From: Natronosalvus halobius
GTDB taxonomy: Archaea > Halobacteriota > Halobacteria > Halobacteriales > Natrialbaceae
Direction of reading: 5' to 3'
Length of the DNA: 64,000 bases
Assembly: GCF_024138145.1 (NCBI RefSeq)
Contig: NZ_CP099997.1
Coordinates: 248,001 to 312,000, forward strand
Below are positions 19,753 through 36,621 of the stretch, in pieces (positions within the stretch are counted from its first letter, which is position 1; the number at the start of each line of letters is the position of its first letter). The position numbers and the translations under genes were made by a program. A model generated the notes under the pieces. It saw nothing but the letters and a program-made list of their open reading frames with translations. It did no database searches and was not told the origin of the DNA.

Positions 19753-19808
19753 ACGAATATCCCGCTCGAGCCGTGGGGTTTCGGTGATTTTCTGGATCAT
19801 GATTTGGA

Positions 19809-20819: not shown

Positions 20820-21055
20820 TTCGAACCAGCCTCCGATCGGACAGCCTCGAGGAGTTCCGATCGCTCTTGGTCGTCGAGTCGTTCGTCGACGATCTCGACC
20901 AACCAGGCGGAGTCGGCGCGCCGCGCTGGCCCAAGCCCACCGCCCACGGCGTCGACGGCCTCGGTGGCCGTCTCCGCGTTCCCGATGGCGAGTTCACAAA
21001 GTGCTTTCCGAGCGACTTGCTGGACTTGAGTCCAGTGGCGTTGCTCGTAGATCAC
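20816..21055 (-). CDS. Small helical protein in the integrase operon, 79 aa
   Basis: A 79-residue, mostly helical protein (MIYEQRHWTQVQQVARKALCELAIGNAETATEAVDAVGGG...) without zinc site or membrane segment. It starts with GTG overlapping the stop of the 83-residue gene upstream and ends overlapping the integrase start, so it is translationally coupled on both sides. In SNJ2-like viruses I recall two small proteins encoded with the integrase that promote integration and excision. This gene is a candidate for one of them by position only. Confidence 0.65.
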   Translation of the reverse strand: MIYEQRHWTQVQQVARKALCELAIGNAETATEAVDAVGGGLGPARRADSAWLVEIVDERLDDQERSELLEAVRSEAGSK

Positions 21056-21303
21056 GCCGAACCCTCCTCGAGGGTCGTCTGGTCCTCGTCGAGAGCGGCG
21101 TGATCCCGAACCGTCTCTCCGCTGGGTTGTACCTCGCGGAGGTCCTCAGCCCATTGCTCGAGACGTTCCCGAACCTGCTCGACTTTGTGCTCGAGTTCGT
21201 CGACGTTCCCAGCTGAAACCTTTGCTCGAATTTTATCACGGTCGTCGGTGCTGGTGCCGCGGGTGAGCTCGACGGTGATCTCGAGTGAGTCCTCGTCACT
21301 CAT
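21052..21303 (-). CDS. Small coiled-coil protein in the integrase operon, 83 aa
   Basis: An 83-residue protein. An acidic beta-like N-terminus (SLEITVELTRGTSTDDRDKIRAKVSAG) is followed by a heptad-like helix (VDELEHKVEQVRERLEQWAEDL) that should form a coiled coil. It lies between a zinc-finger gene and the 79-residue gene with start/stop overlaps on both sides. Together with that gene it may act as an accessory factor for the integrase, by analogy with SNJ2. No DNA-binding motif is obvious. Confidence 0.65.
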   Translation of the reverse strand: MSDEDSLEITVELTRGTSTDDRDKIRAKVSAGNVDELEHKVEQVRERLEQWAEDLREVQPSGETVRDHAALDEDQTTLEEGSA

Positions 21304-21499
21304 CGATGCTCACCTCCTGGACGATCGTCGCCTCGAGCAGGTCCTCGCAACTCTCGCAGACGGTGATCCGTCCGTCCGGATCTTCGACGTCGACGAGTCG
21401 AATGGTCCCGGCGGTGGTTCCACAGCCGTCACAGTACAGCGCTTCGTCGTCGACGTACCTGGCGGTACGTTTACTTTGGATGCCTTCGTCGGTGTGCAT
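21296..21499 (-). CDS. Small zinc-finger protein heading the integrase operon, 67 aa
   Basis: A 67-residue protein with YCDGCGTTAGT and, about 20 residues later, VCESCEDLLEA, so one C-x2-C...C-x2-C zinc site. I chose the ATG at 21499 (MHTDEGIQSKRTARYVDDEALYC). A longer frame to 22033 runs through the AT-rich control region and is not convincing. Its stop overlaps the start of the coiled-coil gene by eight bases. It may be a DNA-binding accessory or regulator of the integrase operon. Confidence 0.65.
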   Translation of the reverse strand: MHTDEGIQSKRTARYVDDEALYCDGCGTTAGTIRLVDVEDPDGRITVCESCEDLLEATIVQEVSIDE

Positions 21500-22089
21500 G
21501 GTCTCTGGTTTCAGGGACCGCGGACGGACCGCGCGCGCTGCTTGTTCCACCAAAACGCGCGTGCGGTCGATGTCCGCTGGTCGATTATGTTCTGAGTGGC
21601 AACACGTCTTAAGCATCGGGGGGTGGTTTCCAATATTTCCGAAACCGGGTTTTGGCCGGTTCGGTGGAATCTCGAAACGACTTCTACTGACCCATATCCG
21701 GGGATTCAAGCGATTTTGAGATCCGAATCGATACGGAAAAACCCGTTTCCAATAACTTTCCGATAATTCGAATGCCGGGAAAAATGACTGTCGCCGTGAT
21801 CGATACGACTCTCGTCTGTCGGGGGCTTTATCTCCCCGCGAAGTGCGTTTTACCATGCTTCCGTAGTCTGGATACGGAGGCCAGGCGGATCGGTGCCCCA
21901 AACACCGGGTCCGCGTTTTGCGAGGACCCGACCGGGCAGCGGTGGGTCCGTCTGGCGTCCGTTGCTCGCCTCCGAGACACCCCATTGACTTATAGTTTAG
22001 CGTATTTCCGCTACTAATGTGGCACAAATACAATCGTCTATCAACGAACCGACTGCAGTTAAACCGTCTGAGTGGGTTGGACGGACTGA
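21500..22089. promoter_or_regulatory. Lysogeny control region between integrase operon and repressor
   Basis: This 590-bp divergent region has no convincing gene. It contains an inverted repeat with 6-bp arms (GGTTTC at 21625-21630 and GAAACC at 21641-21646) around an AT-rich centre. A partly matching direct copy, gtttccaataactttccga, starts at 21745. Such paired sites are plausible operators for the adjacent PhiH1-type repressor. A TATA-like gttaaacc near 22056-22062 is about 30 bases before the repressor ATG. Confidence 0.5.
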
Positions 22090-22359
22090 ATGCGACCCCG
22101 CCCCGAGTGGATGAGTCTGAAAGACGGCCTGATCCTCGAGTTCCTCGCAGAACACGATCTCGAGCTTCCGGCGAAGCCGTTGTACAAGAACCTCAACCGC
22201 CACGGGCACCAGATCGGCTACTCGACGGTTCGCCAGCGACTCAACGAGCTGGAGGACCACGGACTGCTCGATCGCGCCGACGACGGAGGGTACTACGAGA
22301 TTTCGGACCGCGGACGGGCGTGGGTCGCGGGCGACCTCGAGGCCGACGACCTCGAGTAA
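22090..22359 (+). CDS. PhiH1-type repressor-like winged-helix protein, 89 aa
   Basis: An 89-residue winged-helix protein: MRPRPEWMSLKDGLILEFLAEHDLELP, then YSTVRQRLNELEDHGLLDRADDGGYYEISDRGRAWVAG. The opening, size and wing match the haloarchaeal phage PhiH1 repressor-like family. It is transcribed away from the integrase operon across a control region with repeats, the position of the lysogeny repressor in SNJ2-like viruses. It probably maintains the integrated state by blocking integrase and late promoters; that role is inferred from family and position. Confidence 0.75.
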   Translation: MRPRPEWMSLKDGLILEFLAEHDLELPAKPLYKNLNRHGHQIGYSTVRQRLNELEDHGLLDRADDGGYYEISDRGRAWVAGDLEADDLE

Positions 22360-22362
22360 TCG

Positions 22363-23145
22363 CTAAATTACGCTTCCCAAGTTTTCAGCGGCTGCTTTAG
22401 AGAGGTTGACGTTCTTTTCTGAAACGGTGACCGGTCCCCCGGTGACGTCCTCGATAAGCGCTGCCAGCTCCTTGAGATATGTACTCGAGCGTTCCTCCCT
22501 GAATTTGAGAATGGAGCCATGGGCATGGGCTCGATTTTCGAGATAGCAGACGACGAACAGCCGACGGACGTCGTCAGGTGCGCCCTCGAGGTACGTGGGC
22601 AACTCGAGTTCGCCCTCGGTTTTCGACCCTACGGGCGCGCCGAGGCTGGCGAGCACGCGACCTAGAACACGGCCGTCGGTCGTCGGCCGGGCTTCGTCCG
22701 CGCGACCCGTGCGCTCGAGGAGATCGTAGTCGACGCCGGCGAGCTCGAGCGCGTCGATAACGTGGCTCTCGTCGCCGCGTCGGTTCAGGGCGAACGCAGG
22801 GGTGTAGTTCTCGCGGGCGATCGACCCGCCCGAGAAGATGTTCGCGACAAGTGCGTTCAGCGCGTCGAATTTTGAGTCACCGTACTCGAGGTCGAGCCAA
22901 CCGTGGCGACGTGCGGCCTCGATACAATTCACCGCATCAGGTGCACCGCCATCGTCGATCCACGTCCGCAAGCGTGAGCGCGGGAGATCCAGCGCAGAGG
23001 CGGTCGCCCCCGATTTGACGTCGTGTTTTGACGCATAGCGCGTCGCTTTCCGGTATTGCCTGACGATCTCAGCGGCGTCCTCGTAGGCACCGCCGTCGAA
23101 GGTTTGCGCCAGATCCTCCTCGGTCACGAACACGCGGTCGGTCAT
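22363..23145 (-). CDS. Putative degenerate LAGLIDADG-like DNA-binding protein, 260 aa
   Basis: A 260-residue protein starting MTDRVFVTEEDLAQTFDGG. Residues about 20-65 suggest a helix-turn-helix (YASKHDVKSGATASALDLPRSRLRTWIDDGG). Two later segments have the layout of LAGLIDADG homing endonuclease half-domains: ALNALVANIFSGGSIARENY...PAFALN and LPTYLEGAPDDVRRLFVVCYLENRA. The acidic residues at the motif ends are replaced, so cleavage is unlikely. The gene faces the repressor gene tail to tail (3-bp gap). It could be a regulator or replication factor of the provirus. I chose the ATG at 23145 because the longer version adds a leader with different composition. Confidence 0.5.
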   Translation of the reverse strand: MTDRVFVTEEDLAQTFDGGAYEDAAEIVRQYRKATRYASKHDVKSGATASALDLPRSRLRTWIDDGGAPDAVNCIEAARRHGWLDLEYGDSKFDALNALVANIFSGGSIARENYTPAFALNRRGDESHVIDALELAGVDYDLLERTGRADEARPTTDGRVLGRVLASLGAPVGSKTEGELELPTYLEGAPDDVRRLFVVCYLENRAHAHGSILKFREERSSTYLKELAALIEDVTGGPVTVSEKNVNLSKAAAENLGSVI

Positions 23146-23490
23146 TGCTCGAGTGATGGATTGTGTTGTGTAATAGGATTCGGGTTTCGACAGCACAGGG
23201 AAAAACGCCAGACGTGAACGTTTCAAGAGGGTGTTGTAGGCCTTCCACGAGTCGCTGATTATCACATCTGAAAGCCTCTCAGATACCTTGAATCTCGTTT
23301 ATTCATACCTAGCCACAGCGTTTATTATACAGCCGTTAAGTGAGACTATCAGCACAGGTGCGACGCGAAGAACTGACGGTGTGGGAAGGTAAGTACCCCC
23401 AACCCCATCCGCCGACTGATTCGACGCCGGGTCAGTCAATAAAGTTTCTGACCGTTCACATCTGGTGCGCATAATAGAACAACGATAATC
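23146..23490. promoter_or_regulatory. Divergent promoter region before the pilin gene
   Basis: A 345-bp AT-rich region between the LAGLIDADG-like gene and the pilin gene. Two similar AT-rich boxes (cgtttattcatac at about 23298 and cgtttattatac at about 23321) look like promoter elements. Another AT-rich tract (gtcaataaag, cataatagaac) precedes the pilin ATG. I see no gene in it. Confidence 0.4.
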
Positions 23491-23916
23491 ATGGACCTGA
23501 AGAAATACAGAAGCAAGCTGATCGGAAACGAATCGGAGAGGGCTGTCTCTCCTGTCATCGGAGTTATACTCATGGTCGCCATTACGGTGATTCTCGCGGC
23601 TGTGATTGCGGCGTTTGTACTGGATTTGGGAGCTTCAACCGGGGAGGGCCCGGTCAATGCAGTGGTTGCAACTGAAACGGATAATGCTGCGGGAGAAATC
23701 AAAGTCACAATTCAGGACTCTGGTCAGGCAGGCAACTTCAAATACGTAGTTGACAATGGTGACCAGAACGATCTTGGCATCAGTTCCACTGGTCAGAGCA
23801 TAACCCTAGATGACTCCGATGCCGATATTCCTGCCAGTGGAAACGGAGAAATCAAAATTATTGCAGTTGACGGCGATTCTGAAACGGTAGTCTCCACCCA
23901 GGAGTTTAACTTCTAA
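23491..23916 (+). CDS. Type IV pilin with conserved H-domain
   Basis: A 141-residue type IV pilin-like protein. The N-terminus ends in a short charged leader (…GNESERA) followed directly by VSPVIGVILMVAITVILAAVIAAFV, the conserved haloarchaeal pilin H-domain processed by prepilin peptidase. The rest is a small acidic beta-rich head (NAVVATETDNAAGEIKVTIQDSG...). GC is visibly lower than in neighbouring genes, suggesting recent acquisition. A pilin is not a core pleolipovirus gene, so this is probably cargo. It may alter the surface or adhesion of the host. A recombinase gene lies about 400 bp downstream. Confidence 0.85.
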   Translation: MDLKKYRSKLIGNESERAVSPVIGVILMVAITVILAAVIAAFVLDLGASTGEGPVNAVVATETDNAAGEIKVTIQDSGQAGNFKYVVDNGDQNDLGISSTGQSITLDDSDADIPASGNGEIKIIAVDGDSETVVSTQEFNF

Positions 23917-24028
23917 AACCACACCCGTCTATTTCTATTATTTCAATTATAAGTGGTCAAACCATCGTCGGATAACAACTAATCTTCGGACGACCCTTTT
24001 TATGGGATAACACATCCAGGGAAAGTAG

Positions 24029-24217
24029 ATGCAAACGACACCACAAGAAGACTGTTTGTTAATCGTGGCGCTAACCCGTTTTGAAGTAGAATTTCGGGAC
24101 GCTGATCCGATATTGGCAGAAAAAGCGTGGCTACTGGCCGAGAAGTTCGCTTCCACACATGGTCTCGAACCAACAGATGCTGCAATGCAACTCGAATGGC
24201 CGTCCGATAAGGAGTAG
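24029..24217 (+). CDS. Hypothetical protein, 62 aa
   Basis: A 62-residue protein (MQTTPQEDCLLIVALTRFEVEFRDADPILAEKAWLLAEKFASTHG...) with helical, acidic character and no known motif. It starts about 30 bases after a TATA-like cctttttatggg and ends 94 bp before the recombinase start. I do not recognise it; it may be a partner of the downstream recombinase. Confidence 0.45.
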   Translation: MQTTPQEDCLLIVALTRFEVEFRDADPILAEKAWLLAEKFASTHGLEPTDAAMQLEWPSDKE

Positions 24218-24310
24218 ATCTCGGACGTGAATCGTCCCGATCGGGGCGCCCATCGCACCAAAACACTCACTATCTACCGGGTTGCCGTCCGGCTTACTCG
24301 CAACCCGGAC

Positions 24311-24898
24311 ATGAATCTTCAGCAACATCGCAACCGCGACGACATGAAAGTCTGGCTCAGCCAGGCCGAAGTTGCACAGCTCCTCGAGGCCGCCATCAAC
24401 ACCCAGCAGCGACTCGCCTATTCTTTGGGCGCGCGTTGTGGGCTCCGCTCGCACGAAATTCTGGACGTCTCGCCCGAGGACGTCGTCGACACTGACGCCG
24501 GAACAGTCCTCCGTGTCTGGCACGGGAAAGGCGACAAGTTCCGCGAAACGCCCGTTCCCCGCGACCTGGCGACGACTATTCGAACCGTGGCCGACGTTCG
24601 CGACGCCTCGAGCGACAAACCGTTGCTCGAGATTTCGACGACACGCTCGCTTCGGCGCTGGCTCAGTGGTACCGCTCGCGAGCTCCACCAGGTGACCGGC
24701 GACGACGGCTGGTTATATCTCGGGATGCACGACCTCCGACGGACGTGGGCGACCGCGCTCGCGGCTGCCGACGTCGATCCGCTCCTTGTGATCGACTGGG
24801 GTGGATGGAACGACCTCGAGACGTTCCTCGAGCACTATCGCGGGACGTACTCACCGGAAGCGCAACAGCGAGAACGCGGGAAAGTGAAATGGCTGTAG
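24311..24898 (+). CDS. Short tyrosine recombinase (XerC/D-like), 195 aa
   Basis: A 195-residue tyrosine recombinase catalytic domain with little or no N-terminal core-binding domain. Visible catalytic residues: Arg in ARCGLRSHEI, Lys region HGKGDKFRETPVP, His-x-x-Arg in MHDLRRTWAT, Trp in DWGGW, and Tyr in LEHYRGTYSP. It starts at ATG 24311 (MNLQQHRNRDDMKVWLSQ). It is distinct from the provirus integrase at 19809 and its C-terminus RERGKVKWL is intact. Short recombinases of this type are common in haloarchaeal plasmids and proviruses; they may resolve dimers or invert DNA. It is next to the pilin gene and just before an inverted-repeat segment. Confidence 0.75.
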   Translation: MNLQQHRNRDDMKVWLSQAEVAQLLEAAINTQQRLAYSLGARCGLRSHEILDVSPEDVVDTDAGTVLRVWHGKGDKFRETPVPRDLATTIRTVADVRDASSDKPLLEISTTRSLRRWLSGTARELHQVTGDDGWLYLGMHDLRRTWATALAAADVDPLLVIDWGGWNDLETFLEHYRGTYSPEAQQRERGKVKWL

Positions 24899-24909
24899 TT
24901 CGGAATTTC

Positions 24910-25596
24910 GGCTCTGTTGAAACCCTTAATTGATGATACGTTCCGAGAGTTGTGCTGAATACAGAGGATGGGTACAGCACGATGCCGCTATTTATTTCGG
25001 GCGTTCAGGTCGAAACCAACCGCTACATACGGCTGCGGACATAGCACCAATCCCATGGATAAATCAATTAATTTAAATTAGATGGCCGTCACCTCAAAAT
25101 ATGGTTTCCCAGATTGACTCATCAGGAACGGACCTCCACTCTCTCGAGACCTTTGCTGCTAAGACTGACAAGTGGTGGTATCTACCGGCACTATCTGGTG
25201 GCAGTGCTGCTTTGATCACGTTTCTGGCTTATTTCACAGCTACTCCAGTATGGGCGCTAGAAACGTTCAGTGTACTGTTTTTATTTCCGGCAACAATTTT
25301 CGCTATCCCAGCCATCGCCTTCGATATACTCAATAAATATGATGATGGTCTACCACCCGGGTTATTCTTCTACCCGCCTTTGCTATTAATAGCAATGATA
25401 ATCGGAACTTTTCCACATATTTCGGTCGTTTCCGTTTACTTTGTGAGGTGGGTGTGGTTCGAAAGTGATAGTGATGCATAAACCATCTGTATTGAGCGTT
25501 TGACCTTCCGCGTTGATCCCTCCTCAGTCCGTGCAACATTCGCGCTCTGTATTCAGCACGCTATTTCTATCACGTTCAAAGGGTTTCAGCAGAGCC
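24910..25596. mobile_element. 687-bp segment bounded by imperfect inverted repeats
   Basis: The left end ggctctgttgaaaccctt (24910-24927) is the reverse complement of the right end aagggtttcagcagagcc (25579-25596) except for one base. Inside, gtgctgaatacagag (24951-24965) is mirrored by ctctgtattcagcac (25545-25559). This paired terminal structure resembles the ends of a transposable element. No transposase is encoded between them, only one AT-rich membrane protein. I found no exact target duplication: the flanks are merely similar (aatttc and attttc). Confidence 0.55.
25101..25481 (+). CDS. Small multi-pass membrane protein, 126 aa
   Basis: A 126-residue protein with three hydrophobic segments (WYLPALSGGSAALITFLAYF, FSVLFLFPATIFAIPAIAF, FFYPPLLLIAMIIGTFPHIS) and short charged ends. 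GC is clearly lower than in the flanking virus genes. It is the only gene inside the inverted-repeat segment. I do not recognise the family. A superinfection-exclusion or other membrane role is conceivable but not shown. Confidence 0.55.
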   Translation: MVSQIDSSGTDLHSLETFAAKTDKWWYLPALSGGSAALITFLAYFTATPVWALETFSVLFLFPATIFAIPAIAFDILNKYDDGLPPGLFFYPPLLLIAMIIGTFPHISVVSVYFVRWVWFESDSDA

Positions 25597-25605
25597 GTAA
25601 TTTTC

Positions 25606-25791
25606 TTATTGGCCGATTCCTTCGACGAGTTCGATCGTCCATTCCCCTTCGTCGACGTGGCGAATGTGGGCGTGGTGTTCGCCCTCGAGTTTCCCGTCGT
25701 CGTCGAGTAGGCCCTCGAGGCGGAGGTCGTCTTTCGGGAGCGTGATACCCGCGGAGTTCTGGTCGAGCTGGCGTAATTTGTTCAATGCCAT
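25606..25791 (-). CDS. AbrB/SpoVT-like small regulator, 61 aa
   Basis: A 61-residue protein, MALNKLRQLDQNSAGITLPKDDLRLEGLLDDDGKL...EWTIELVEG. The NS-x-GITLPKDDL segment is the typical swapped-hairpin beta strand of AbrB/MazE-type DNA-binding domains. It is divergent from the late operon, whose first gene starts 121 bp away. By position it could regulate late virus genes. An antitoxin-like role is unlikely without a toxin gene nearby. Confidence 0.65.
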   Translation of the reverse strand: MALNKLRQLDQNSAGITLPKDDLRLEGLLDDDGKLEGEHHAHIRHVDEGEWTIELVEGIGQ

Positions 25792-25870
25792 ACCCGGCGG
25801 GCAACCCGCCTTGGTATAAAGGTTGCTGACAGTCTGTTTTGCCGATGAATACCCGAGGCGTCGCCTATGA

Positions 25871-26347
<477 letters not shown>

Positions 26348-26363
26348 CCTCGAGGCTCAATTC

Positions 26364-26489
26364 ATGCAACTCACGAAATTCAACGGTACGAAAGCGGAGT
26401 GGTACGATTCGACGATCACCGGCTACATCATCACGGCCTCGGCGCTCTCGATCGCGCTTACCGGGGTGATGGCTGCGGGGGTGGTCTGA
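26364..26489 (+). CDS. Small single-pass membrane protein, 41 aa
   Basis: A 41-residue protein beginning MQLTKFNGTKAEWYDSTIT with one C-terminal hydrophobic segment (YIITASALSIALTGVMAAGVV). It lies 16 bp after the VP3-like gene. Its stop codon (tga in tctgagtg) is directly followed by the GTG start of the next gene, so it fits as a coupled late gene. Small membrane proteins in this position occur in pleolipoviruses; its role is unknown. Confidence 0.6.
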   Translation: MQLTKFNGTKAEWYDSTITGYIITASALSIALTGVMAAGVV

Positions 26490-27023
26490 GTGCGGCCCAC
26501 TCCCACGGCTGGCCGATTCCTCTCGGTAGTGGTCGTCGTGCTCGCGCTCGGCGCTGGCCTCCTGGTCGGCCTCGGCGCCGCGGACACGAGCGAGCTCCTG
26601 AACGAAACCGTCGAGGTCGACAACAACTCCGATCCGGTGACGATCGCCGTCGAGTTCTCCGATGACTTCAACGATTCGTCGACGGACGTCGCAAGCGTTG
26701 AGGCGACGTTCTACAACGAAACCGAGTTCAACGACTCGGGAACGAACGCCACGGTGCTGCACACGGTCACCATCGAAGGCAAAGAGACCGAGCGCATCGT
26801 CCAGGATGTCTACTTCGAGGATCACGCGAACCTCGAGTACAACGAGACGACGCGCCTGGTGGTCGAAGGTGACGCCGAAAAGGTCGAGACCGTCGAAATC
26901 GAGGGCGGGCTGATCGGCGGTGTGATCGCCTACGGTGACGCCCAACCCGGCTTCGGCGTCGGGGTTGCTGTCCTCGCGCTGGCTTTCGCTGGCGTGGCGG
27001 CACGCGCTCGAGGAGGTGACTAA
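26490..27023 (+). CDS. Exported virus protein with C-terminal TM anchor, 177 aa
   Basis: A 177-residue protein: N-terminal signal (FLSVVVVVLALGAGLLVGLGAA), an acidic beta-rich ectodomain with several N-x-S/T sites (NNSD, NDSS, NETE), and a C-terminal hydrophobic anchor (GFGVGVAVLALAFAGVAARARGG). It starts at GTG immediately after the preceding stop. Its own stop overlaps the spike gene start (TAATG). Its position and topology suggest a second surface protein or spike-associated factor of the virion. I do not recognise the fold. Confidence 0.65.
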   Translation: MRPTPTAGRFLSVVVVVLALGAGLLVGLGAADTSELLNETVEVDNNSDPVTIAVEFSDDFNDSSTDVASVEATFYNETEFNDSGTNATVLHTVTIEGKETERIVQDVYFEDHANLEYNETTRLVVEGDAEKVETVEIEGGLIGGVIAYGDAQPGFGVGVAVLALAFAGVAARARGGD

Positions 27024-29896
27024 TGTCGTCAGCCCAAAGCCCATCGCCAGGAGATCCTCCGACGTACCATCACGGGATCACGCTCACCCGGCGCCGGACG
27101 CTCCAGGCGATCGGCGCGGCTGCGATCGCGGGGACGGCCTCGAGCGGAACGGTCGCTGCTGACAATGGCCTCGTCGATGGCCTCAAGGAGGCTATCGGCG
27201 GTGTCATCGACAAGACCCACTGGACGATGGCGGTCTTCGCGATGCCTGTCTTCGTCGGCCTCGTCGGAGGCACCTGGTATCGCAACGCGATGAACGAAGA
27301 CCCAACGTCCGACCGCGTGCAGCTGCACCAACTCGTAACCAACGAGGCGGCCTGGATGAACAACCACTCGGTAAACTTCGGTAACTACCTGAACGACACT
27401 CGCCCTATCGCCTCGCTCGAGGCGCGTCACGGGATGGCGTCTGAATGGGAACTCGGAAACGGCTCGAGCAAAGGTTACGACACTGCGCTCTCGCGCATTC
27501 GCCAGTACTACTGCGTTCCTGAGTTCAACCATCTGCACGTCTCTAACAAGGCGCTGCTGCAACTGTCCTATATCGCTGGCGCTGGTCAGAACACGGACCC
27601 GGCGTACAACATTCAGACGATCGGCGAGCGCGTGTCGGACGGCTCGAACGTCATCGTTCGCATCTCGGATGCTCGAGAGCAGACGAAACCTGTGCTGCAC
27701 GAGGGAACGGTCGTCGATGAAAACGCTCTCGACAATGTCGATAACCTCGATGGCGACGACGGGCGTTTCATCACGCCTGTTTTCGACTTCCTCGACGCAT
27801 CCGATGAGACGCTGATCGGCTCGAAGGCACTCGGCCCGGACGAACTCGACGCCTGGGACTCGGATCACCAACTCTCCGTTCGTGGCGACGGTCACACGGG
27901 CGCGACAACGTTCGTGCTCGAGGACGGTACGGAGGTGCTGACGGACCTCCGACTCACTACGCAAAACGTGAGCGACGACGGTGGCGACCTCAATTCGACG
28001 GACTCGCTGCTCGCGTTCGATGGGCGGGAGTTCTTCGAGATTCTCGAGGAGGTTCGAACGCTCTCGGACGACGTAGTGGCTTGGTATGACCAGTCGTTCG
28101 TCGAGGATATTTATGCTGAACTCGACGCAGGGAATATCACGCCCGAGCAGGTTCGATCGCCTGAAGGGATGGCTCGGTTCCTATCGGGAACTGACGATCC
28201 TACTGATGAACGCTTCCAAATATCGTGGATGCAACAATTCGGGTTCGAGCGGCCTGATCTCCGACTCGTGCGTGGCATGAGGGTAAACTGGACCGGCGCA
28301 ACGGACACCTGGATCGACCCCGACCCGAACCTCGACGATCGTCACGCTTACCCTGACGAGTACGTCGACGGCGAAACGTACAATGGTATGTTGTTCGGTA
28401 CGGAGGATGTCGATTTCAAAAGCGGGAATCGGTACGCTGTGGGGTCTGAACGCTTCTCGAGGAGCGACGGGGGCCTGGCAGTTATCGACCAGATGGGCGA
28501 CCCTGTACGCTACCATTCTCCTTCTGGCCGGGTGTTCGGCTCTCCCGAGCACAATATCGCAATCGGTGAATCTGGCGGTGACGTTGAGGCGATGAACACG
28601 ACAGATGGGTCAGTCGCCTGGACGGGCTCGTACACTCACAACGGTTACAACCGTTGGGCTGGCCTGAGCAAGAACCAGGACGTGTTCGTTGTCGTCGATA
28701 GCCCTTCGGGCAGCGACCCGGCACCGGCAAAAACGTTCGACGTAGAAACTGGGGATGTCCTGTGGTCGAGTACGCTGGCAGACCAAGGTCGGCAACTCTC
28801 GGTTACGGAGAATTACTTGGCCCATCTCGGAACGTCATCGACGGACGGGCTGTGTATCTACGACCTCTACACCGGGACCGAGTACGTCGCTGAGTCGGGG
28901 GATTTCTACGATAATCTCCATGCTGCTGCGGAAACTGGTTCGGTCGTCGCCTCGGGTTGGGACGGGACGTACAAAGCCTACGATACCGACACCTGGGAGG
29001 TCCTATGGACCGGTTCGCATTCGCCGAATCATGCCATCGGACACGACGGGGTGTTGTATCTGGCGAACGGAACAACGCTGACTGCTCTCGAGGCAGATAC
29101 TGGTACGGAGATGTGGACGTACACGGCCTCGGATTCGATCGTTTCGCTGAACGTTGCGCAGTCGGCTGACCACCTCGTATTAGGGGCGAGCGGAACTGTA
29201 CGTGTGTCGTTCGATGGCGACGAGCTCGCCACTGTGGGCGGCCTGTCTCCGTACTGGCTCCGCCTCCCCAATGAATCACTCGACGGTGTGGCCGCTCGAG
29301 CGATCATGTTCGACGAGTCGACCCGTGACGAGGACGGCGAGGTGATCGAGCAAGGGCAAGGACAGGTCGACCTTTGGGACGGCGTGCTCGAGGTTGTCGA
29401 GATGTGGGACGCCGAAGGCGCCGATATCACACACGTCGACGATGGCACGATTTCGGACATTGAGGCGCTTGAAGGGACGCCGGACTCGATCGACACAATC
29501 GTCGAGGAGATGGACGAGTTCGATAGTGTCGATGATATTCGCTACACGCGTGACGTGCTGGCGATTATCGAGCACTACGAAGTCGATGCCACGGTCGGAA
29601 ACGACGGCGATGCTGACGTACAAACGACTGAACCGGATTACACTGACCAGGACTACGACGCGGTAACGTCTGCTGAGTTCGCTGAGGCGATGGCTGAACT
29701 CGAGGAGTTGATCGCTCAACTCGAGAGCGAGAACGAGGAGACGAGCTCGAGCACCGAAGACGACGAGCCGCTGTTCGGCGGGCTGTTCGGAAGCTTCGAC
29801 GGCGGCAGCGGAACCCTGCTCGGGTTCGGGCTCATCGCGGCGGTGGTCCTGGCGGTCGTCGGGATCGTGACCGACCTCCTCCCCTGGACGAGATAA
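27023..29896 (+). CDS. Pleolipovirus-type spike protein with central PQQ-like beta-propeller
   Basis: A 957-residue exported protein. A Tat signal (LTRRRTLQAIGAAAIAGTAS) precedes an ectodomain starting RNAMNEDPTSDRVQLHQLVTNEA and SLEARHGMASEWELG, features I associate with pleolipovirus spikes. The C-terminus has a heptad-like helix (FAEAMAELEELIAQLESENEE) and a TM anchor (GTLLGFGLIAAVVLAVVGIV), also spike-like. Residues about 455-735 instead show repeated PQQ/WD-like blades (TTDGSVAWTGS, ETGDVLWSSTL, DTWEVLWTGSH, DTGTEMWTYTA). The protein is clearly longer than ordinary spikes, consistent with insertion of a propeller. It should mediate attachment and membrane fusion; the propeller may bind a host sugar or protein. 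Confidence 0.75.
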   Translation: MSSAQSPSPGDPPTYHHGITLTRRRTLQAIGAAAIAGTASSGTVAADNGLVDGLKEAIGGVIDKTHWTMAVFAMPVFVGLVGGTWYRNAMNEDPTSDRVQLHQLVTNEAAWMNNHSVNFGNYLNDTRPIASLEARHGMASEWELGNGSSKGYDTALSRIRQYYCVPEFNHLHVSNKALLQLSYIAGAGQNTDPAYNIQTIGERVSDGSNVIVRISDAREQTKPVLHEGTVVDENALDNVDNLDGDDGRFITPVFDFLDASDETLIGSKALGPDELDAWDSDHQLSVRGDGHTGATTFVLEDGTEVLTDLRLTTQNVSDDGGDLNSTDSLLAFDGREFFEILEEVRTLSDDVVAWYDQSFVEDIYAELDAGNITPEQVRSPEGMARFLSGTDDPTDERFQISWMQQFGFERPDLRLVRGMRVNWTGATDTWIDPDPNLDDRHAYPDEYVDGETYNGMLFGTEDVDFKSGNRYAVGSERFSRSDGGLAVIDQMGDPVRYHSPSGRVFGSPEHNIAIGESGGDVEAMNTTDGSVAWTGSYTHNGYNRWAGLSKNQDVFVVVDSPSGSDPAPAKTFDVETGDVLWSSTLADQGRQLSVTENYLAHLGTSSTDGLCIYDLYTGTEYVAESGDFYDNLHAAAETGSVVASGWDGTYKAYDTDTWEVLWTGSHSPNHAIGHDGVLYLANGTTLTALEADTGTEMWTYTASDSIVSLNVAQSADHLVLGASGTVRVSFDGDELATVGGLSPYWLRLPNESLDGVAARAIMFDESTRDEDGEVIEQGQGQVDLWDGVLEVVEMWDAEGADITHVDDGTISDIEALEGTPDSIDTIVEEMDEFDSVDDIRYTRDVLAIIEHYEVDATVGNDGDADVQTTEPDYTDQDYDAVTSAEFAEAMAELEELIAQLESENEETSSSTEDDEPLFGGLFGSFDGGSGTLLGFGLIAAVVLAVVGIVTDLLPWTR

Positions 29897-29898
29897 TC

Positions 29899-30450
29899 AT
29901 GAAACGGATTTTCATTTTCACGATTGTGGTAGTGGTATCGCTCGCGATGGGCATGGGCAATATGGGCGCGCTCGCGCAAGAAAACGCCACGAACGAGACT
30001 GCCACCGAGGACGGCATCGAGGCCGGTGAAGACTACGAGCGGGCGATCGACGCCGAAACGCGAATCGTCGATTGGTCCTATTCGAGCGGTCGGTTCACCC
30101 TGACGATCGAGGCCGACGAACGGCGACGTATCTCTATGACCGAAGCCGGCACCTTCGAGGAGGGAACGACGTCGTTCAACTACGACGAGGTGCGCCTCGA
30201 GGAGGGAACGAACACGGTGACGTTCGCCGTAGCTGACCGCCAGGGCGCCGCGGTCGCCATTGCCACCAGGCAATCACTCGCGCAGGGGAGCGGCGCGATC
30301 GTCTCGACGGGAATGGTGGAACAGAACCCGTTCCGTCACTTCGGAGGTGAGAGCGGCCTGTTTTCGGGCGTCATCATGACGACGGCGCTCGCAGGTATTG
30401 GCGCGGCGTACGTCGTCCGCTCCGAGGAAAGCGGGGTGGTGCAGGCATGA
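29899..30450 (+). CDS. Exported late virus protein, 183 aa
   Basis: A 183-residue protein with a signal peptide (MKRIFIFTIVVVVSLAMGMGNMGALAQ), an acidic N-x-T-rich start, a beta-rich middle (VDWSYSSGRFTLTIEADERRRISMTEAG) and a C-terminal hydrophobic segment (GLFSGVIMTTALAGIGAAYVV). It lies two bases after the spike stop and overlaps the next gene by four bases. Pleolipoviruses carry conserved membrane-associated ORFs between spike and ATPase; this is one by position. Its function is unknown. Confidence 0.7.
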   Translation: MKRIFIFTIVVVVSLAMGMGNMGALAQENATNETATEDGIEAGEDYERAIDAETRIVDWSYSSGRFTLTIEADERRRISMTEAGTFEEGTTSFNYDEVRLEEGTNTVTFAVADRQGAAVAIATRQSLAQGSGAIVSTGMVEQNPFRHFGGESGLFSGVIMTTALAGIGAAYVVRSEESGVVQA

Positions 30451-31241
30451 CTGAAACCAGCGGAACGTTCTCGAGCTGGTCCGACCGAGTGACCTACTTG
30501 CTGGCCGAGAGCCAGCTAATCGTTCTCGGGATCATGGTCTCGCTCGGCGCCGCGCTCATTTGGATTCGACCGAGTGTCCCCGGTATCCCGCCGATCGTCT
30601 TCGGCTGGTTTGCCGCGCTGTTACTCCTGGGGCCGCCGCTACTTGCGGTATTCGTCACGGGTGCGCGGAAGCTCCGAAACCGCCACATGATTCCCGTGCA
30701 CCACATCAACGGCGTCGAGGACGTCCGCGAGAAGTACTACGTCGAACCCGAGGTGTGGGCGAACAAGACCGTCGAAGGACCGTCGCCGTACCAATGCAAC
30801 GACAACGAGGCTTTCGAGGTTCGCGAGTTCGAGTGGCTCGAGGACACAGAGGACCTCATCGTCACCGGCTGTTACCAGTCGAATATGGCCGACTCGAAGC
30901 TCGTGACGCTGAAGGCGATGCTGGAGGACATCCACGGCGACCTTATCGAGGATTCGATCGCGCTCAACAAACTCCGCGGCCGTATCAGCAAGATGGGCGT
31001 CGAGATCGAACGTGACTCGATCAACTTCCAGGCGGAGGCCGACGAGCGTGGGCTAATGGGCCAGCAGACCAGCGTGAAAGAGCGCTTCGAGTCTGCTCGT
31101 AAGGAGGCCGACAAGTGGGACAGCGACGAGATCCGCGACGTCGACGACTACGCGATCGACTACGATCCGGCGGAGAACCCGCAGGGGATCACGTTCGAAC
31201 CCGCGGAGGCCGCCACCGACAGAGGACGAGATCATGAGTGA
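30447..31241 (+). CDS. Conserved pleolipovirus membrane protein, 264 aa
   Basis: A 264-residue protein with two N-terminal TM helices (LIVLGIMVSLGAALIWI and IVFGWFAALLLLGPPLLAVFV) followed by a long cytosolic domain. That domain starts RKLRNRHMIPVHHINGVEDVREKYYVEP and ends in charged helices (ESARKEADKWDSDEIRD). It overlaps the preceding gene by four and the ATPase gene by eight bases. The pair of this membrane protein with the VP8-like ATPase is a conserved pleolipovirus arrangement, possibly acting together in genome handling or budding. Confidence 0.75.
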   Translation: MTETSGTFSSWSDRVTYLLAESQLIVLGIMVSLGAALIWIRPSVPGIPPIVFGWFAALLLLGPPLLAVFVTGARKLRNRHMIPVHHINGVEDVREKYYVEPEVWANKTVEGPSPYQCNDNEAFEVREFEWLEDTEDLIVTGCYQSNMADSKLVTLKAMLEDIHGDLIEDSIALNKLRGRISKMGVEIERDSINFQAEADERGLMGQQTSVKERFESARKEADKWDSDEIRDVDDYAIDYDPAENPQGITFEPAEAATDRGRDHE

Positions 31242-32415
31242 GAACAACGGCGCCGACCAGCAGGCGCTCTACACGACCGCACAGGCGCGCGAGCACCAGG
31301 AAGGCTACAGCGACCGGGAAAACCGCGAAATTCACGACCACGGCGGTATCGTGCGCGACGAGCACGTCTCGAGAGCGCTGTCGATCCGGTCGGTTCACTA
31401 CGATCCTCTCGAGGCCGATAGGCCCGACAAGATGCCCGGCCAGTGCAAAGACCTCCGAAAGCACCGCGACATCCGCATGGTCGAAGGGACTGAAACCTTC
31501 CGCCAGGCGCTCGAGAACGGCGATATACCGACGATCAAGCACATGGTCGGCGACACCTCACAGCGAGCGGACGTCTCAGGAATGAAAGCCATCGGCAAAG
31601 TCGACAACCTGATCGACGGTCCGGCGCCGGTCGTCGTTGTCCTGGGCGAAATGGGCGCCGGAAAGACCGACTTCGCGTGTCTGCTCGCGCAGCGCTGGCG
31701 CGACCTCAACCGATCCGATTCGCTGCTCGGAACCAACATCCAGTCCCTCGAGGAGAAGAACCGTTGGGTCGACGACGACGGCGACGTCCAGGACGGCTGG
31801 ATTCCTGACTACGGCACCCTCATGGAGTGGGTCGAGCAGGACGGCGACCCGCTCGAGCACAGCCAGCGTTCCAAACTGTTCATCGGTGACGAGTTCTCGA
31901 GTTCGGCAAGCGGCCAGGGCAAACAGGGCTACGAAACCCGGATGAAGATGGCGCCGTTGGTCTACAAGATCCGCAAGTATGGCGGTGCGCTGATCTACAT
32001 CGCTCACGGCGAACGATCGATCCACCCGATGCTGTGGCGCGTCGGCACGATCGTCAAGAAGGTCAGTCAGAAGAAAGCGATCATCGCCGATTCGATAAGC
32101 AACGCGAAACTCGCTGACGTCCAGGGCGAGATCGAAGGCATCCCACCGACGGACTTCCGCTACAACACCAAAGAGGCGAGCGACTGGAGCTGGTCGCGCT
32201 TCGGCGACGAAACCGACGAGATGAACGCCGACGAGGCCGCTCGACTCACCGCGCTGTGGACGGTAATCCGCTGTAAGGAAGAGGGAATGACGAACCGTGA
32301 AACCGCCAAATTCGTTCCCTACAGCCACGGTTGGGTGGGTTCGCGCTGGCGCGAGTACCGAGACGACGGCGAGCACGTCGACGCGATTTCCAAAGTGAAC
32401 GAGGTTATCGCATGA
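31234..32415 (+). CDS. VP8-like P-loop ATPase of the provirus
   Basis: A 393-residue ATPase. Walker A GEMGAGKTD (about residues 137-145) and Walker B KLFIGDE (about 214-220) are clear, followed by KYGGALIYIAHGERSIHPMLWR and a C-terminal helix-turn-helix-like part (TNRETAKFVPYSHGWVGSRWREYRDDG). Pleolipovirus VP8 proteins are ATPases of this kind, encoded at the end of the conserved cluster and thought to act in virion assembly or DNA packaging. It ends the late operon; a hairpin follows about 60 bases later. Confidence 0.8.
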   Translation: MSENNGADQQALYTTAQAREHQEGYSDRENREIHDHGGIVRDEHVSRALSIRSVHYDPLEADRPDKMPGQCKDLRKHRDIRMVEGTETFRQALENGDIPTIKHMVGDTSQRADVSGMKAIGKVDNLIDGPAPVVVVLGEMGAGKTDFACLLAQRWRDLNRSDSLLGTNIQSLEEKNRWVDDDGDVQDGWIPDYGTLMEWVEQDGDPLEHSQRSKLFIGDEFSSSASGQGKQGYETRMKMAPLVYKIRKYGGALIYIAHGERSIHPMLWRVGTIVKKVSQKKAIIADSISNAKLADVQGEIEGIPPTDFRYNTKEASDWSWSRFGDETDEMNADEAARLTALWTVIRCKEEGMTNRETAKFVPYSHGWVGSRWREYRDDGEHVDAISKVNEVIA

Positions 32416-32472
32416 CCGCGGTCCGATGGATGGCTGGATACGGATACGCAGTCCCCTTTACTCGAGGCCCAA

Positions 32473-32514
32473 GCCCATCGCTCGCTCCAGCGGGGAGCGA
32501 AGCGACCGATGGGC
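32473..32514 (+). terminator. Hairpin after the late operon
   Basis: GCCCATCG (32473-32480) pairs with CGATGGGC (32507-32514), and CGCTCC/GGAGCG extend the stem inside with a short loop. It lies between the ATPase stop and the promoter of the nuclease-like gene, so it may mark the end of the late transcript. No oligo-T tract follows, so termination is uncertain. Confidence 0.45.
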
Positions 32515-32572
32515 GGTCGTCGAGACGACCGGAGGAGTTGATATATATCGGCGCGCGTAGCGCGTGGTCGGC

Positions 32573-32956
32573 GTGAACCGCTCGAAGCGAGCGAACCACT
32601 TCGGGACGATCTGCGAGAAGCGCATGGCCCGGAAGCGACGGTTCGACCTCGAGCGCTCGAGCTGGCACGATGCGAAGTTCCAGAACGGATCGCCCGTCGA
32701 GATCAAGAGCACGATGCTCGAGCACAGCGATGGGCAGCCAGGGAACTTCAAGGTCTACAGGGCGTATCACGATCGACTCCGTCGAGCGAACGGGTGGTAC
32801 TGTTTCGTGGTGTACCGGCCACACGGGCGATCAGGACTGACGATCGTCAAAGACAGGGTGTGCAAGGCCTCGAGTCTTCCGTTACTTCGGTGGCATGGCG
32901 GTGGAGATCATCGCAATACTCAGCAGGCCAAAATAGCGATTTCAGATATGTTTTAA
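32573..32956 (+). CDS. PD-(D/E)xK nuclease-like protein, 127 aa
   Basis: A 127-residue protein with the layout of a small PD-(D/E)xK nuclease or resolvase: Glu15 (FGTICEKRMAR), Asp33 (SWHDAKF), then VEIKS (Glu43-x-Lys45), and a later GWYCFVVYRP strand. A TATA box (atatatat, 32541-32548) about 28 bases upstream favours the GTG at 32573 as a leaderless start over a GTG nine bases earlier. It may be a Holliday-junction or restriction-type nuclease used in virus DNA processing. The family assignment comes from the motif pattern only. Confidence 0.6.
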   Translation: MNRSKRANHFGTICEKRMARKRRFDLERSSWHDAKFQNGSPVEIKSTMLEHSDGQPGNFKVYRAYHDRLRRANGWYCFVVYRPHGRSGLTIVKDRVCKASSLPLLRWHGGGDHRNTQQAKIAISDMF

Positions 32957-33027
32957 GAGCAATAGATGTGTTTGGATACGGTTGGGAGCCTAAAAACTAT
33001 GTGTCACTAACCATATTGGTTCAGCCT

Positions 33028-33828
33028 ATGTCAGCGAATAGTCCAGACTGGTTGCAAAATAGTACTCATCCTCTTTATACAACTGTAACGCGAATTCGGT
33101 TTCCTCACGAAGAGGGGCATGCAACTGGTTTCTTTTATAATTCAGGCGAACAAACCTACTTAGTAACTAACAGACATGTACTCAATTGGGGCGAAAAAGA
33201 TAGTCCTGATTCGATGCGAATCTTTACTCGGGAATTGAAGAACCTTGGAGAACGCCAATTCCATGATATTGACCTATCTAAAGGAGATGGGAGTAATTGG
33301 TACTCTCATCCTCATGGGTCGGCTATCGATGTTGTCGTGATACCTCTTGACTTCAAACTTGACTCAATAAATCCTCGCATCGGAATTTCCAACGAAAGAC
33401 CGTCTGAAACGGGGAGTCTTGCCTTTAATAATGAATCAATCTTGTCCCAGAAAGAACGTGTCCTCGCTGGCGATCGATCTCAAGTAATTGGATATCCTGG
33501 CCAATATATTGATCAAAATAGTGACTTTCCGGTGACCCGAAACGCAATTATCTCTACCCAATATGGGATGCCCTATAACGGGAACCCAATCTTCCTAACT
33601 GATGCTCGGATGCATCCTGGAACTAGTGGTAGTCCAGTCCTAGCAGGACCTGTTACACTCATAAATTATAATGGAATTGATCTATGGGGGCCAGCATACA
33701 AATTGTTAGGTGTTCATTCGGCAACCCTCAGACAAATTGACGTAAATAATGAAAACCACTGGCTGGATTTGAACACTGCTTGGTATGCAGAACTAATTGA
33801 AGAGACTATCCAACACCATGACGAATAG
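33028..33828 (+). CDS. Trypsin-like serine protease (cargo gene), 266 aa
   Basis: A 266-residue trypsin-fold peptidase. The catalytic triad is visible as His50 (VTNRHVLNW), Asp101 (SAIDVVVIPL) and Ser200 (HPGTSGSPVL). There is no signal peptide, so it is probably cytosolic. GC is far lower than in the surrounding virus genes, with A/T-rich third positions, so it was probably acquired recently. It lies between the nuclease-like gene and a structured non-coding region and is not part of the conserved pleolipovirus set. Intracellular trypsin-like peptidases occur in antiphage systems, so a superinfection or defence role is possible. The start at 33028 lies about 35 bases after a taaaaact box. 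Confidence 0.75.
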   Translation: MSANSPDWLQNSTHPLYTTVTRIRFPHEEGHATGFFYNSGEQTYLVTNRHVLNWGEKDSPDSMRIFTRELKNLGERQFHDIDLSKGDGSNWYSHPHGSAIDVVVIPLDFKLDSINPRIGISNERPSETGSLAFNNESILSQKERVLAGDRSQVIGYPGQYIDQNSDFPVTRNAIISTQYGMPYNGNPIFLTDARMHPGTSGSPVLAGPVTLINYNGIDLWGPAYKLLGVHSATLRQIDVNNENHWLDLNTAWYAELIEETIQHHDE

Positions 33829-34405
33829 TTCCGATAGGAGTAGCGCGGGGAACTAACAATGATGTGGTTGGCTGGTCAGCTGTAAGTCCGACGTGGCAAC
33901 GACAGACTCCCCCCGCGCTGATTGAGAATTGTCCGCAGAGAAGGTAATCTTAGTGGCCGGATCGGCCCACCCTAAACACACTCGACAACCCTGGTTAGCG
34001 AGGTCACACCATCGTCAACGGGGGGTACTGGGGTATGAGCCATGCGTTTCCAGCCCGTCGACCAAACCTCGAGCGCGGCGCGCGTTCTGCGCGCCGCAAG
34101 ATTACCCTGCCCCCTTAGGGGCACTTACCGTAGGGGGACCTGACAACCACGGTGGGCGGGCCGACGCCTGTATCGCCCGATCTCGCCTACCAGGGACGCG
34201 CTACTCGCCGGTTTCCACGTGGGATCGAGAGGCGAAATGTCGCCAATTTTCGGCACTCACGCTCGATTACAGGTAGGCGAAAGTGAAAATGCGGCCAGCG
34301 AGACTCTTCGAAAAGCGAGAACGTGAGAACCAGCGCTGAAACGCTCGAAAACAACGCGCAAAACCGAATGCTGTAGCTAGCGACCGGGCGAACTCGGACC
34401 GAGAG
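33829..34405. other. Structured non-coding region of the provirus
   Basis: About 577 bp with no supportable gene between two convergent provirus genes. It contains a perfect 9-bp hairpin with a 5-base loop (GCGGCGCGC at 34075-34083, GCGCGCCGC at 34089-34097). A wider inverted pair (agcgcgggg near 33842, ccccgcgct near 33913) and C/G runs around 34110-34140 are also present. It could be a replication origin, packaging signal or structured RNA; nothing seen discriminates between these. Confidence 0.5.
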
Positions 34406-36073
34406 TTACCGTAATGGCGGCGGCAGCTCGTCGGCCCGGACCCGGATGTCACGATCGTCGAGGCGGTCGCGGTCGTACTCCTGGGCGATCTCCGCGAACG
34501 ACGCGCTCAGCTTCGCCAAGTACTCGAAGCCGATCTGGTCGTCGCTGGTGGCGCTCTCGCTGGCTTCGTCGTCGCGTTCGTTCGATTGGTCGTCCATTTC
34601 CTCCTGTAGTTCCTCGCGGCGCTCACGGCGCTCGTCACGCCGTTCGTTCATGTCCTCGGCCATGTCGTCCGGACGGATCTCGCGAACGATCTCGCGAGCG
34701 CGCTCGAGGACGGCCTGGCTCACGAATACCACCAGGACGGGATTACCGAGTCGCTTCACGACACCGGCCTCGGCGAGTCGGGCGACGTGGTACCGGACCG
34801 TCGATCTCGCGAGCCCGGTTCGCTCCTGGAGGCAGTCGTAACTGGCACCCGTCTCCTCGGCAATCACCCGGAGGATGTCGTAAACTGACGTAGTGGACTC
34901 CTTGAGTGCTTCCCGGTAGATCTCCGTCGCCAGGTCCTCGTACCGCCGACGGAGCATCTGACGGCGCCCTGTGGGTCGCTCGAAGGTGAACGGTGCGGCC
35001 ATCGGCCCATCGAAGAAGTCGTCGGACACCAGGTCTGACCGGCGAACGCCGGCCCATTGCGCGTGCGTCGCGACGACGGTCCGGAGGTGGTGGAGGACGT
35101 CGTCCCAGTCCAGGACGTGCGGGAGTTCCCCGCGGTCGACACCGGAAAAGGACGCCTCGAGCTTCGGGTGGGCGAACGCATCACTTCGCGGGCGCTTGTG
35201 CCAGTCGCCGATCTGGTAGACCTTCAGCTCGGTACTGTAGCGCTGCGGATCGAATCCGAGTAGATTCCAGCGGTCGCTTTCGACGATCGCCTCGAGCCAA
35301 CCCTCTTTCAGTCGGCGCTGGCGAGCATCGATCTCGGACTCACCACCCCAGTCGATCAAGTGTTTCGACTGGTCGATCGTCTCGATCACGGCGCCCTTCT
35401 TCTCGAGGTTGAACCGAATGTGTGCTTCGGCTTTCGAGATCCGTCGCGACTCGAAAACTCGTTGCTCGAGGTCAATACAGTCGTCGCCGTAGACGGCCCG
35501 TAGCGCGTCGTACATCCGGTGCTCAATCTCCTCGGGACCTTCGGCCCACGTCGTCCACCCGACGACTCGCGTTCCCTCGCCGTGGGGACACTCGAGCGGA
35601 TCACCCGACTTGTAGACCATGTCCTGGTACTGCGGGTTGATCTCGACGTGCAACGCGAGCGGTGGTTTCTGGAGCGGTCGTTCGCCGTTGTCGTCTTCAG
35701 GTCCCCAGCGCCGGAGCTTCAAATGCTGGTCGTAGAACGATCGGTAGTCGTCACCGAGTCCTTTCCCGGCCTTCCATCGAGACGACGTGAGTACGAGCGC
35801 ATAGTCTCCCTCGGGCAACCAGTCGGCATCGAAGTCGTCGACGGCGACATAGGGTTCGTTCTCCGGGTTCTCGACGTGCTCGCGCCAGTAGCTCAATGCA
35901 CGAGCGTAGAGCGTTCCGCGTTCGCCAGCTGGCTTTCGTCGATTTCGCGGATCGAAGTCGGCGAAATGGTTCATTACTCCGGCACCGTGTGCTCGAGGCT
36001 CGGGAAACGTCTCCCGGCTGGTGCCGGTGACGTTGCTGAAATCCTCCGGTTCGACCGGATTATCGACGCTCAC
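34406..36073 (-). CDS. Large winged-helix provirus protein (DUF7845-like), putative replication protein
   Basis: A 555-residue protein. The N-terminal 400 residues form an uncharacterised domain (PKSGD...HVEINPQYQDMVYK, WTTWAEGPEEIEHRMYDALRAVYGDDC, LKVYQIGDWHKRPRSDAFAHPKLE). It reminds me of haloarchaeal DUF7845. A winged helix follows (VYDILRVIAEETGASYDCLQERTGLARSTVRYHVARLAEAGVV) and then a charged coiled coil (ERRDERRERREELQEEMDDQ). I chose the GTG at 36073 because it overlaps the stop of the upstream 39-residue gene (GTGA). Beta-type pleolipoviruses lack the rolling-circle Rep of alpha types; this large DNA-binding protein is a candidate initiator. That role is inference. Confidence 0.7.
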   Translation of the reverse strand: MSVDNPVEPEDFSNVTGTSRETFPEPRAHGAGVMNHFADFDPRNRRKPAGERGTLYARALSYWREHVENPENEPYVAVDDFDADWLPEGDYALVLTSSRWKAGKGLGDDYRSFYDQHLKLRRWGPEDDNGERPLQKPPLALHVEINPQYQDMVYKSGDPLECPHGEGTRVVGWTTWAEGPEEIEHRMYDALRAVYGDDCIDLEQRVFESRRISKAEAHIRFNLEKKGAVIETIDQSKHLIDWGGESEIDARQRRLKEGWLEAIVESDRWNLLGFDPQRYSTELKVYQIGDWHKRPRSDAFAHPKLEASFSGVDRGELPHVLDWDDVLHHLRTVVATHAQWAGVRRSDLVSDDFFDGPMAAPFTFERPTGRRQMLRRRYEDLATEIYREALKESTTSVYDILRVIAEETGASYDCLQERTGLARSTVRYHVARLAEAGVVKRLGNPVLVVFVSQAVLERAREIVREIRPDDMAEDMNERRDERRERREELQEEMDDQSNERDDEASESATSDDQIGFEYLAKLSASFAEIAQEYDRDRLDDRDIRVRADELPPPLR

Positions 36074-36189
36074 AGCGGTCCACCTCGAGCGCGGCGGACC
36101 TCTCGAGTACATTCGGGACAAAGGCGACGGAGGCCGGTGACGGATTCTTCACAGCGCTCGCACTCGCTGTTCTCGACGAGGCGACTCAT
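36070..36189 (-). CDS. Tiny zinc-finger protein, 39 aa
   Basis: A 39-residue protein starting MSRLVENSECERCEESVTG and continuing LCPECTREV, so two C-x2-C knuckles. Its start overlaps the stop of the 41-residue gene upstream, and its stop overlaps the GTG start of the large winged-helix gene. Both overlaps are four bases, strong evidence for a translated, coupled gene despite its size. A Zn-dependent nucleic-acid or protein contact is likely; nothing more can be said. Confidence 0.65.
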   Translation of the reverse strand: MSRLVENSECERCEESVTGLRRLCPECTREVRRARGGPL

Positions 36190-36311
36190 CGAAGACCCTC
36201 CGCAAGTTCAGCTGCGTGCTCGGAACACATCGGCCCATCCGGCGTAGCGGCGGCCGCTTCCCGCCCACAGTCAGGGACGACGCACCGAAGCGCGTCGCGA
36301 TCGGGTTTCAT
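36186..36311 (-). CDS. Tiny zinc-binding protein, 41 aa
   Basis: A 41-residue protein: MKPDRDALRCVVPDCGREAA, then PMCSEHAAEL. The C-x4-C...C-x2-H set can bind one zinc ion. It heads a three-gene unit with the 39-residue zinc-finger gene and the large winged-helix protein, linked by four-base start/stop overlaps. It resembles HNH-like or zinc-finger fragments common in haloarchaeal viruses but lacks nuclease residues. Confidence 0.6.
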   Translation of the reverse strand: MKPDRDALRCVVPDCGREAAAATPDGPMCSEHAAELAEGLR

Positions 36312-36407
36312 CGCTTGCCCTCCGACCGATCAAATTCCGTAAGGAGGGCCCATTTTGATGAGTTTGTCAGAGCCTTATTTGTAGACCAATTCCTCCGATA
36401 AGCCGTA

Positions 36408-36566: not shown

Positions 36567-36621
36567 CCGCATTTTGACCAGGGGCTACGGCCAATGCTGC
36601 TCGAGCAGTGATCGGTTTCGC

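Follow-up and report, generated by a model that had tools for sequence, protein, structure and literature searches.

A Predicted Beta-Propeller Inserted into a Pleolipovirus Spike and Its Apparent Replacement between Closely Related Haloarchaeal Proviruses

Few fusion proteins of archaeal viruses are as well studied as the pleolipovirus spikes, whose receptors, like the manner in which these viruses switch hosts, are open questions. The spikes of HRPV are fusion proteins that are monomeric and V-shaped, and for HRPV-2 and HRPV-6 the receptor-binding role has been proposed to lie with N2 (PMC6381117). Fusion of HRPV-6 is triggered by an S-layer extract of its own host but not by an extract of Haloferax volcanii (PMC8875312). 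Modelling has indicated that spike variation is host-driven and tied to host S-layers, with N2 and the C-terminal part as the most variable regions, and that spikes fall into two sets, having either two or three C-terminal subdomains (PMC10599561). The locus described here lies in a stretch of 64,000 nucleotides of the Natronosalvus halobius genome (contig NZ_CP099997.1, positions 248,001 to 312,000), referred to below as the window, and raises the question of how a beta-propeller comes to stand in the middle of such a spike and what it may do there.

The spike gene belongs to what is, judged from its sequence, a complete SNJ2-like betapleolipovirus provirus of approximately 17.8 kb, that is, a dormant virus of a salt-loving archaeon, since 37-bp repeats flank the element and homologues of SNJ2 genes lie between them. 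Its main features are as follows:

19716-37592: whole provirus, delimited by the repeats and holding homologues of SNJ2 gp1, gp4, gp9, gp10, VP12, spike, gp14, gp15, gp17 and gp18
19716-19752: left attachment-site repeat, exact 37-bp copy of 37556-37592
19809-20819, minus strand: SNJ2-type tyrosine integrase (43% to SNJ2 gp1, E 8e-77; Pfam Phage_integrase)
25892-26347, plus strand: small membrane protein in the position of SNJ2 VP12 (31% to VP12, E 4e-4; phrog_3232, E 9e-40)
27023-29896, plus strand: spike gene, 957 aa, with Tat signal, C-terminal helix/stalk and TM helix
29899-30450, plus strand: SNJ2 gp14 homologue (35%, E 6e-27)
30447-31241, plus strand: SNJ2 gp15 homologue (60%, E 8e-89)
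31234-32415, plus strand: SNJ2 gp17 NTPase homologue (47%, E 1e-105)
37556-37592: right attachment-site repeat, overlapping the 3' end of tRNA-Ala(CGC)
37579-37650: tRNA-Ala(CGC) gene, its 3' end overlapped by the right repeat

The gene order resembles SNJ2 (VP12-like membrane protein, spike, gp14, gp15, NTPase, gp18), and the homologues of the integrase, gp4, gp9 and gp10 are likewise inside the provirus. The spike occupies its position in the conserved core, between the small membrane protein on one side and the two conserved ORFs and NTPase on the other, as is required of a Pleolipoviridae VP4-like spike. The provirus also contains a second tyrosine integrase-like gene (24227-24898, plus strand; Pfam Phage_integrase, E 3.6e-16) and, downstream of the gp18 homologue, an ORF of uncertain start (32794-33828, plus strand) that by eye resembles a trypsin-like serine protease (TNRHVLNWG, GTSGSPVL); no SNJ2 counterpart of it was found, and it is possibly a cargo or defence gene.

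The spike ORF is intact, and the following parts can be distinguished in the predicted protein, largely from structure models:

27302-27595, plus strand: N1-like helical region, residues 94-191 (AlphaFold2 helices; the short-spike profile matches the N-terminal part of 6qgi VP5)
27614-27961, plus strand: N2-like beta region, residues 198-313 (AlphaFold2 strands)
28268-28444, plus strand: first half of the socket subdomain, residues 416-474 (strands 418-427, 447-459 and 470-473 in the second model)
28445-29287, plus strand: inserted beta-propeller, residues ~475-755 (PQQ_2, fold match, absence from short spikes, hole in DNA similarity)
29288-29422, plus strand: second half of the socket subdomain, residues ~756-800, FDE..GQVDLWDGVLEVVEMWDAEG (aligns in all spikes; second-model strands)
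29423-29626, plus strand: accessory helical segment, residues ~801-868 (alignment gap in other spikes)
29813-29878, plus strand: C-terminal TM helix, residues 931-952 (predicted hydrophobic helix; aligns across spikes)

A Tat motif, TRRRTLQAIGAAAIAGTAS, is present, with a signal spanning residues ~22-46, and together with the helix at 931-952 it satisfies the criterion of a signal peptide plus a single C-terminal TM anchor. The helices of the AlphaFold2 model continue to residue ~405 and are followed by a beta subdomain; a conserved G..Y motif in the first half of the socket subdomain precedes the insert. The accessory helical segment (THVDDGTISDIEALEGTPDSIDTIVEEMDEFDSVDDI) adjoins the stalk and is a further insertion, restricted to some members of the propeller clade.

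By the homology of its flanks, the 957-aa protein is a genuine pleolipovirus spike, its fusion activity itself being inferred. The flanks match the spikes of HRPV-2/3/6 (hhalign E 7.2e-11, residues 8-472), with the alignment running up to the insertion point and ending there, and the spike matches SNJ2 VP13 at a tblastn E of 1e-9; among the phages searched, the full protein matches SNJ2 only. Foldseek aligned the whole-spike model with HRPV-11 VP4 (E 3e-8, 650 columns), the whole model being of low confidence, and VIA-align was unusable for the flanks because propellers fill its candidate list. A preliminary description of this DNA had taken the regions around the propeller for an ordinary pleolipovirus spike with a TM anchor and had proposed an alignment with SNJ2 and HRPV spikes; that alignment has now been run, and it, together with the C-terminal helix, bears the claim out. 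The protein was also rightly held to be much longer than typical spikes, as the isolate spikes read measure 486-613 aa.

The identification of the insert as a propeller rests on profiles, motifs and predicted structure. Pfam PQQ_2 matches the window spike at E 1.6e-7 and 31.7 bits against a curated gathering cut-off of 27.6, and relatives match it more strongly (10 of 10 in alignment A1 and 8 of 11 in A3, with best E values of 9e-25 and 2.5e-25). Searching 23 inserts for a strict form of the blade motif gives 58 copies, where shuffled sequences would lead one to expect 12.5, and the copies tend to lie about 40-46 residues apart; the window's own insert holds only one strict copy. Few or none are found in L019, L023, L024 and L026, whose propeller identity is assumed from length and position, and the inserts of L023 and L024 have no significant match to other inserts. 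AlphaFold2 with seven sequences gave a poor whole-spike model (mean pLDDT 55, pTM 0.37), in which regular strands nevertheless run from 477 to 738 at pLDDT values of roughly 50-85. In VIA-align, residues 477-748 match the WD40 protein WDR61 (Z 17.9, rmsd 3.9, 246 residues); a second model, of residues 328-905, matches the same chain at Z 19.1 over 245 residues and also a designed eight-bladed propeller at Z 20.2, the latter match drawing in strands of the flanking subdomain. Foldseek against the PDB ranked BamB first (E 4e-11). A closed propeller fold of residues 477-748 is thus supported as a predicted model of moderate confidence, and the insert is most likely seven-bladed, since seven blade-end motifs, counted by eye, recur at a spacing of 36-47 residues and make seven blades from the insert the best count. 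The propeller reported earlier inside the spike is accordingly upheld by PQQ_2 above its gathering score, by relatives down to 2.5e-25 and by the predicted fold at Z 17.9-19.1; its limits of residues 455-735 need to be moved to ~475-755 (28445-29287 of the window), and "four or more" blades become most likely seven.

The spike insert has the fold and blade motif of BamB/PQQ_2-type and WD40 propellers, although it falls far below the BamB equivalog cut-off (TIGR03300, NCBIfam: 23.5 bits against 285.2, so that the criterion is not met) and stands within a viral membrane spike. No PQQ-dependent dehydrogenase model is among the profile matches listed for the window protein. The YVTN propeller of an archaeal surface-layer protein (1l0q, Z 16.8) shares an archaeal cell-surface setting, the difference being that it belongs to a cellular S-layer protein and the spike is a viral fusion protein.

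That the propeller is a domain inserted at a single site is firmly supported by comparison of predicted proteins; the site is a hairpin within a small beta subdomain, which would belong to the C-terminal arm if this spike shares the V shape of HRPV spikes. Full-length homologues without a propeller were sought and found (SNJ2 VP13, HGPV-1 VP4 and many provirus spikes); they cross the insertion point with a short turn, which marks the region as an added domain rather than part of the normal fold. Between the motifs G..tY and G.FTI.eM.D, short-class spikes, including SNJ2 VP13, have 9-21 residues and propeller-class spikes 282-324; spacers of intermediate length are absent from the alignment holding these two classes, and the bordering residues are the same. 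SNJ2 VP13 (Betapleolipovirus SNJ2, OP012469) comes from the same type of provirus, with the same gene order and spike family, and the flanks of the window spike align with it on both sides of the insertion point, whereas it measures 541 aa, has a 13-residue turn at the socket, no propeller and no Tat motif that could be found. The propeller class comprises 24 loci in 23 genomes of four families, mostly the window's own (f1) and otherwise f4, f7 and f10; the search covered 392 genomes of the order and 125 from the family. No propeller spike appeared in the isolate records matched by the searches, no relatives were found in the plasmid collection, and none were found among IMG/VR viral contigs when the protein and three alignments served as queries. 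An origin of the region as an ordinary stretch of the normal spike fold, or as an assembly or gene-fusion artefact, has nothing found in its favour and can be practically dismissed, as the 24 loci are independent and show the same arrangement in open frames, and the homologous spikes without the region already refute it.

A third occupant may exist at the same position. HRPV-2/3/6 and one provirus spike apparently carry roughly 75-100 (~80) residues of a different segment between the motif pair. HRPV-2/HRPV-6 VP5 (6qgi; PMC6381117) belong to the same spike family (profile E 1.8e-6 and 7e-11) and have a recognizable pre-socket motif (GxTYDPSTFSGDV) and post-socket motif, but show at the apparent same site a conserved ~80-residue segment in place of a propeller. 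Equivalence of this site to the socket is probable and has not been shown, because the individual pre-socket match is weak (-0.7 to -2 bits), although motif order and the motifs themselves agree. The provirus spike in question (L062 in genome G300, a minus-strand ORF of 653 aa) is a spike of the window's family with the HRPV-type segment instead of a propeller. In other families, spikes of 630-727 aa (L069-L077) have a nearly empty socket, their extra length lying elsewhere, apparently N-terminal.

As for how the propellers arose, a tree of the flank (residues 91-472) separates the propeller spikes from the rest by a branch with SH-aLRT 97; the ~80-residue group is set apart likewise, with SH-aLRT 99. 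Since the propeller spikes form one clade, a single gain suffices to account for this inferred tree, with turnover thereafter. The alternative is that cellular haloarchaeal propellers of the PQQ/BamB-like kind were captured several times independently, each time at this socket. It draws on the finding that the window's propeller scores 53.9 bits against an apparently cellular propeller and 41.2 bits against the best other spike propeller. All other inserts are nearest to another spike propeller, in a comparison limited to nine cellular loci chosen with the window's propeller itself, and one flank clade holds every propeller spike, so that repeated capture is unlikely, if still conceivable; a capture added to one original gain cannot be ruled out. 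When the propeller by itself was used to search 392 genomes, no close donor of the window's propeller emerged, only local matches of ~25-46%, mostly to ORFs of 400-580 aa that are apparently cellular. A foreign base composition of the inserts was considered and rejected (mean GC difference -0.014, sd 0.033).

Turnover after the gain is most visible between proviruses that are otherwise nearly the same. The window and its sister provirus in the same genus (genome G237) share ~90% DNA identity over most of about 12 kb; their DNA matches stop at window position 28398 and resume at 29289, and the gap is the propeller. Protein identity between the two spikes is 90% in the N-terminal flank, 31% in the insert and 87% in the C-terminal flank, shuffled inserts giving 25%. 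Another provirus (G318) has the same hole at the propeller and a smaller one in the N2 region. Among 23 spikes, the nearest neighbour by insert agrees with that by N-flank in only two, which form one pair, and nearest neighbours by N-flank and C-flank agree in 12. Replacement of the propeller as a cassette between near-identical proviruses, as read from these alignments, is well supported. If the propellers had instead diverged where they stand, through very rapid adaptive point mutations and small indels and without exchange, this would be compatible with the one gain on the flank tree and with the residual correlation of insert and flank similarity (Mantel r 0.58, p 0.0005), but DNA of ~90% identity on both sides with none alignable between is hard to obtain by point change. 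One pair of loci, L021 and L022, runs opposite: their propeller DNA is 98-100% identical, but stretches of the N-terminal coding sequence are only 75-88% identical, so that divergence in place is improbable. The correlation does imply that exchange is not the whole history and that descent and exchange both act. The L021/L022 mosaic lies at residues ~40-230 within an otherwise ~98% identical stretch, and the N-terminal spike region, by this comparison, also undergoes exchange.

Turning to function, the best reading, given that there are no binding or host-range data, is that the propeller acts as a receptor-binding head which can be exchanged while the fusion machine that carries it is conserved; to this reading we assign a probability of roughly 0.66. 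The propeller would project from the spike and bind a host-specific surface structure, the target being the S-layer glycoprotein or its glycans, and binding would release the conserved fusion machine. Homologous recombination within the conserved coding sequence on either side would exchange one propeller for another, a swap made feasible by both ends of the hairpin lying together, and the traded propellers would let the virus follow changing host surfaces. If the propeller serves in host recognition, its being replaced selectively between proviruses that are otherwise nearly identical is the expected pattern. Receptor binding by the propeller is nonetheless inferred, and its placement on the spike is not established because of the low AlphaFold2 confidence for the whole protein. 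All 24 propeller spikes carry Tat signals, from which it is inferred that folding of the propeller probably takes place in the cytoplasm, prior to export; the Tat signal was rejected as independent support, since these spikes form one clade. The wider proposition, in which one socket takes unrelated recognition domains (nothing, an ~80-residue segment or a propeller) and whole propeller cassettes are traded so as to change host specificity, is evenly balanced.

The main rival to a recognition head also accepts that the propeller is exchangeable, but assigns it to docking or spacing at the S-layer, or to shielding of the fusion part, and leaves recognition of the host to N2. Recognition in HRPV-2 and HRPV-6 has been proposed for N2 and not for the propeller site, which counts against the receptor-head reading; N2 is variable here too, between more distant pairs, and the fold matches include a propeller from an archaeal surface-layer protein. 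The closest pair of spikes (L001/L003), however, largely keeps N2 (76-100% per 40 residues) and has its propeller replaced (31%), which places the strongest turnover on the propeller and leaves docking or shielding rather unlikely.

In the literature searched, which did not include most subscription papers and preprints, no propeller was found in a pleolipovirus spike; papers containing both terms concern, as far as their titles tell, other subjects, and in one of them the propeller is the propeller-shaped vertex of HHIV-2. What appears to be new, within an already known spike family, is the propeller domain together with its socket and the turnover of cassettes. The insertion socket offers a simple anatomical account of the division between two- and three-subdomain spikes (PMC10599561). 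A discrete propeller, able to fold separately, that differs between near-identical proviruses constitutes a natural experiment and a reagent that can be produced by itself for S-layer binding tests. If the wider proposition of one socket with traded recognition domains is true, these spikes would represent an archaeal counterpart of the exchange of receptor-binding modules in tailed phages, located inside a membrane-fusion protein.
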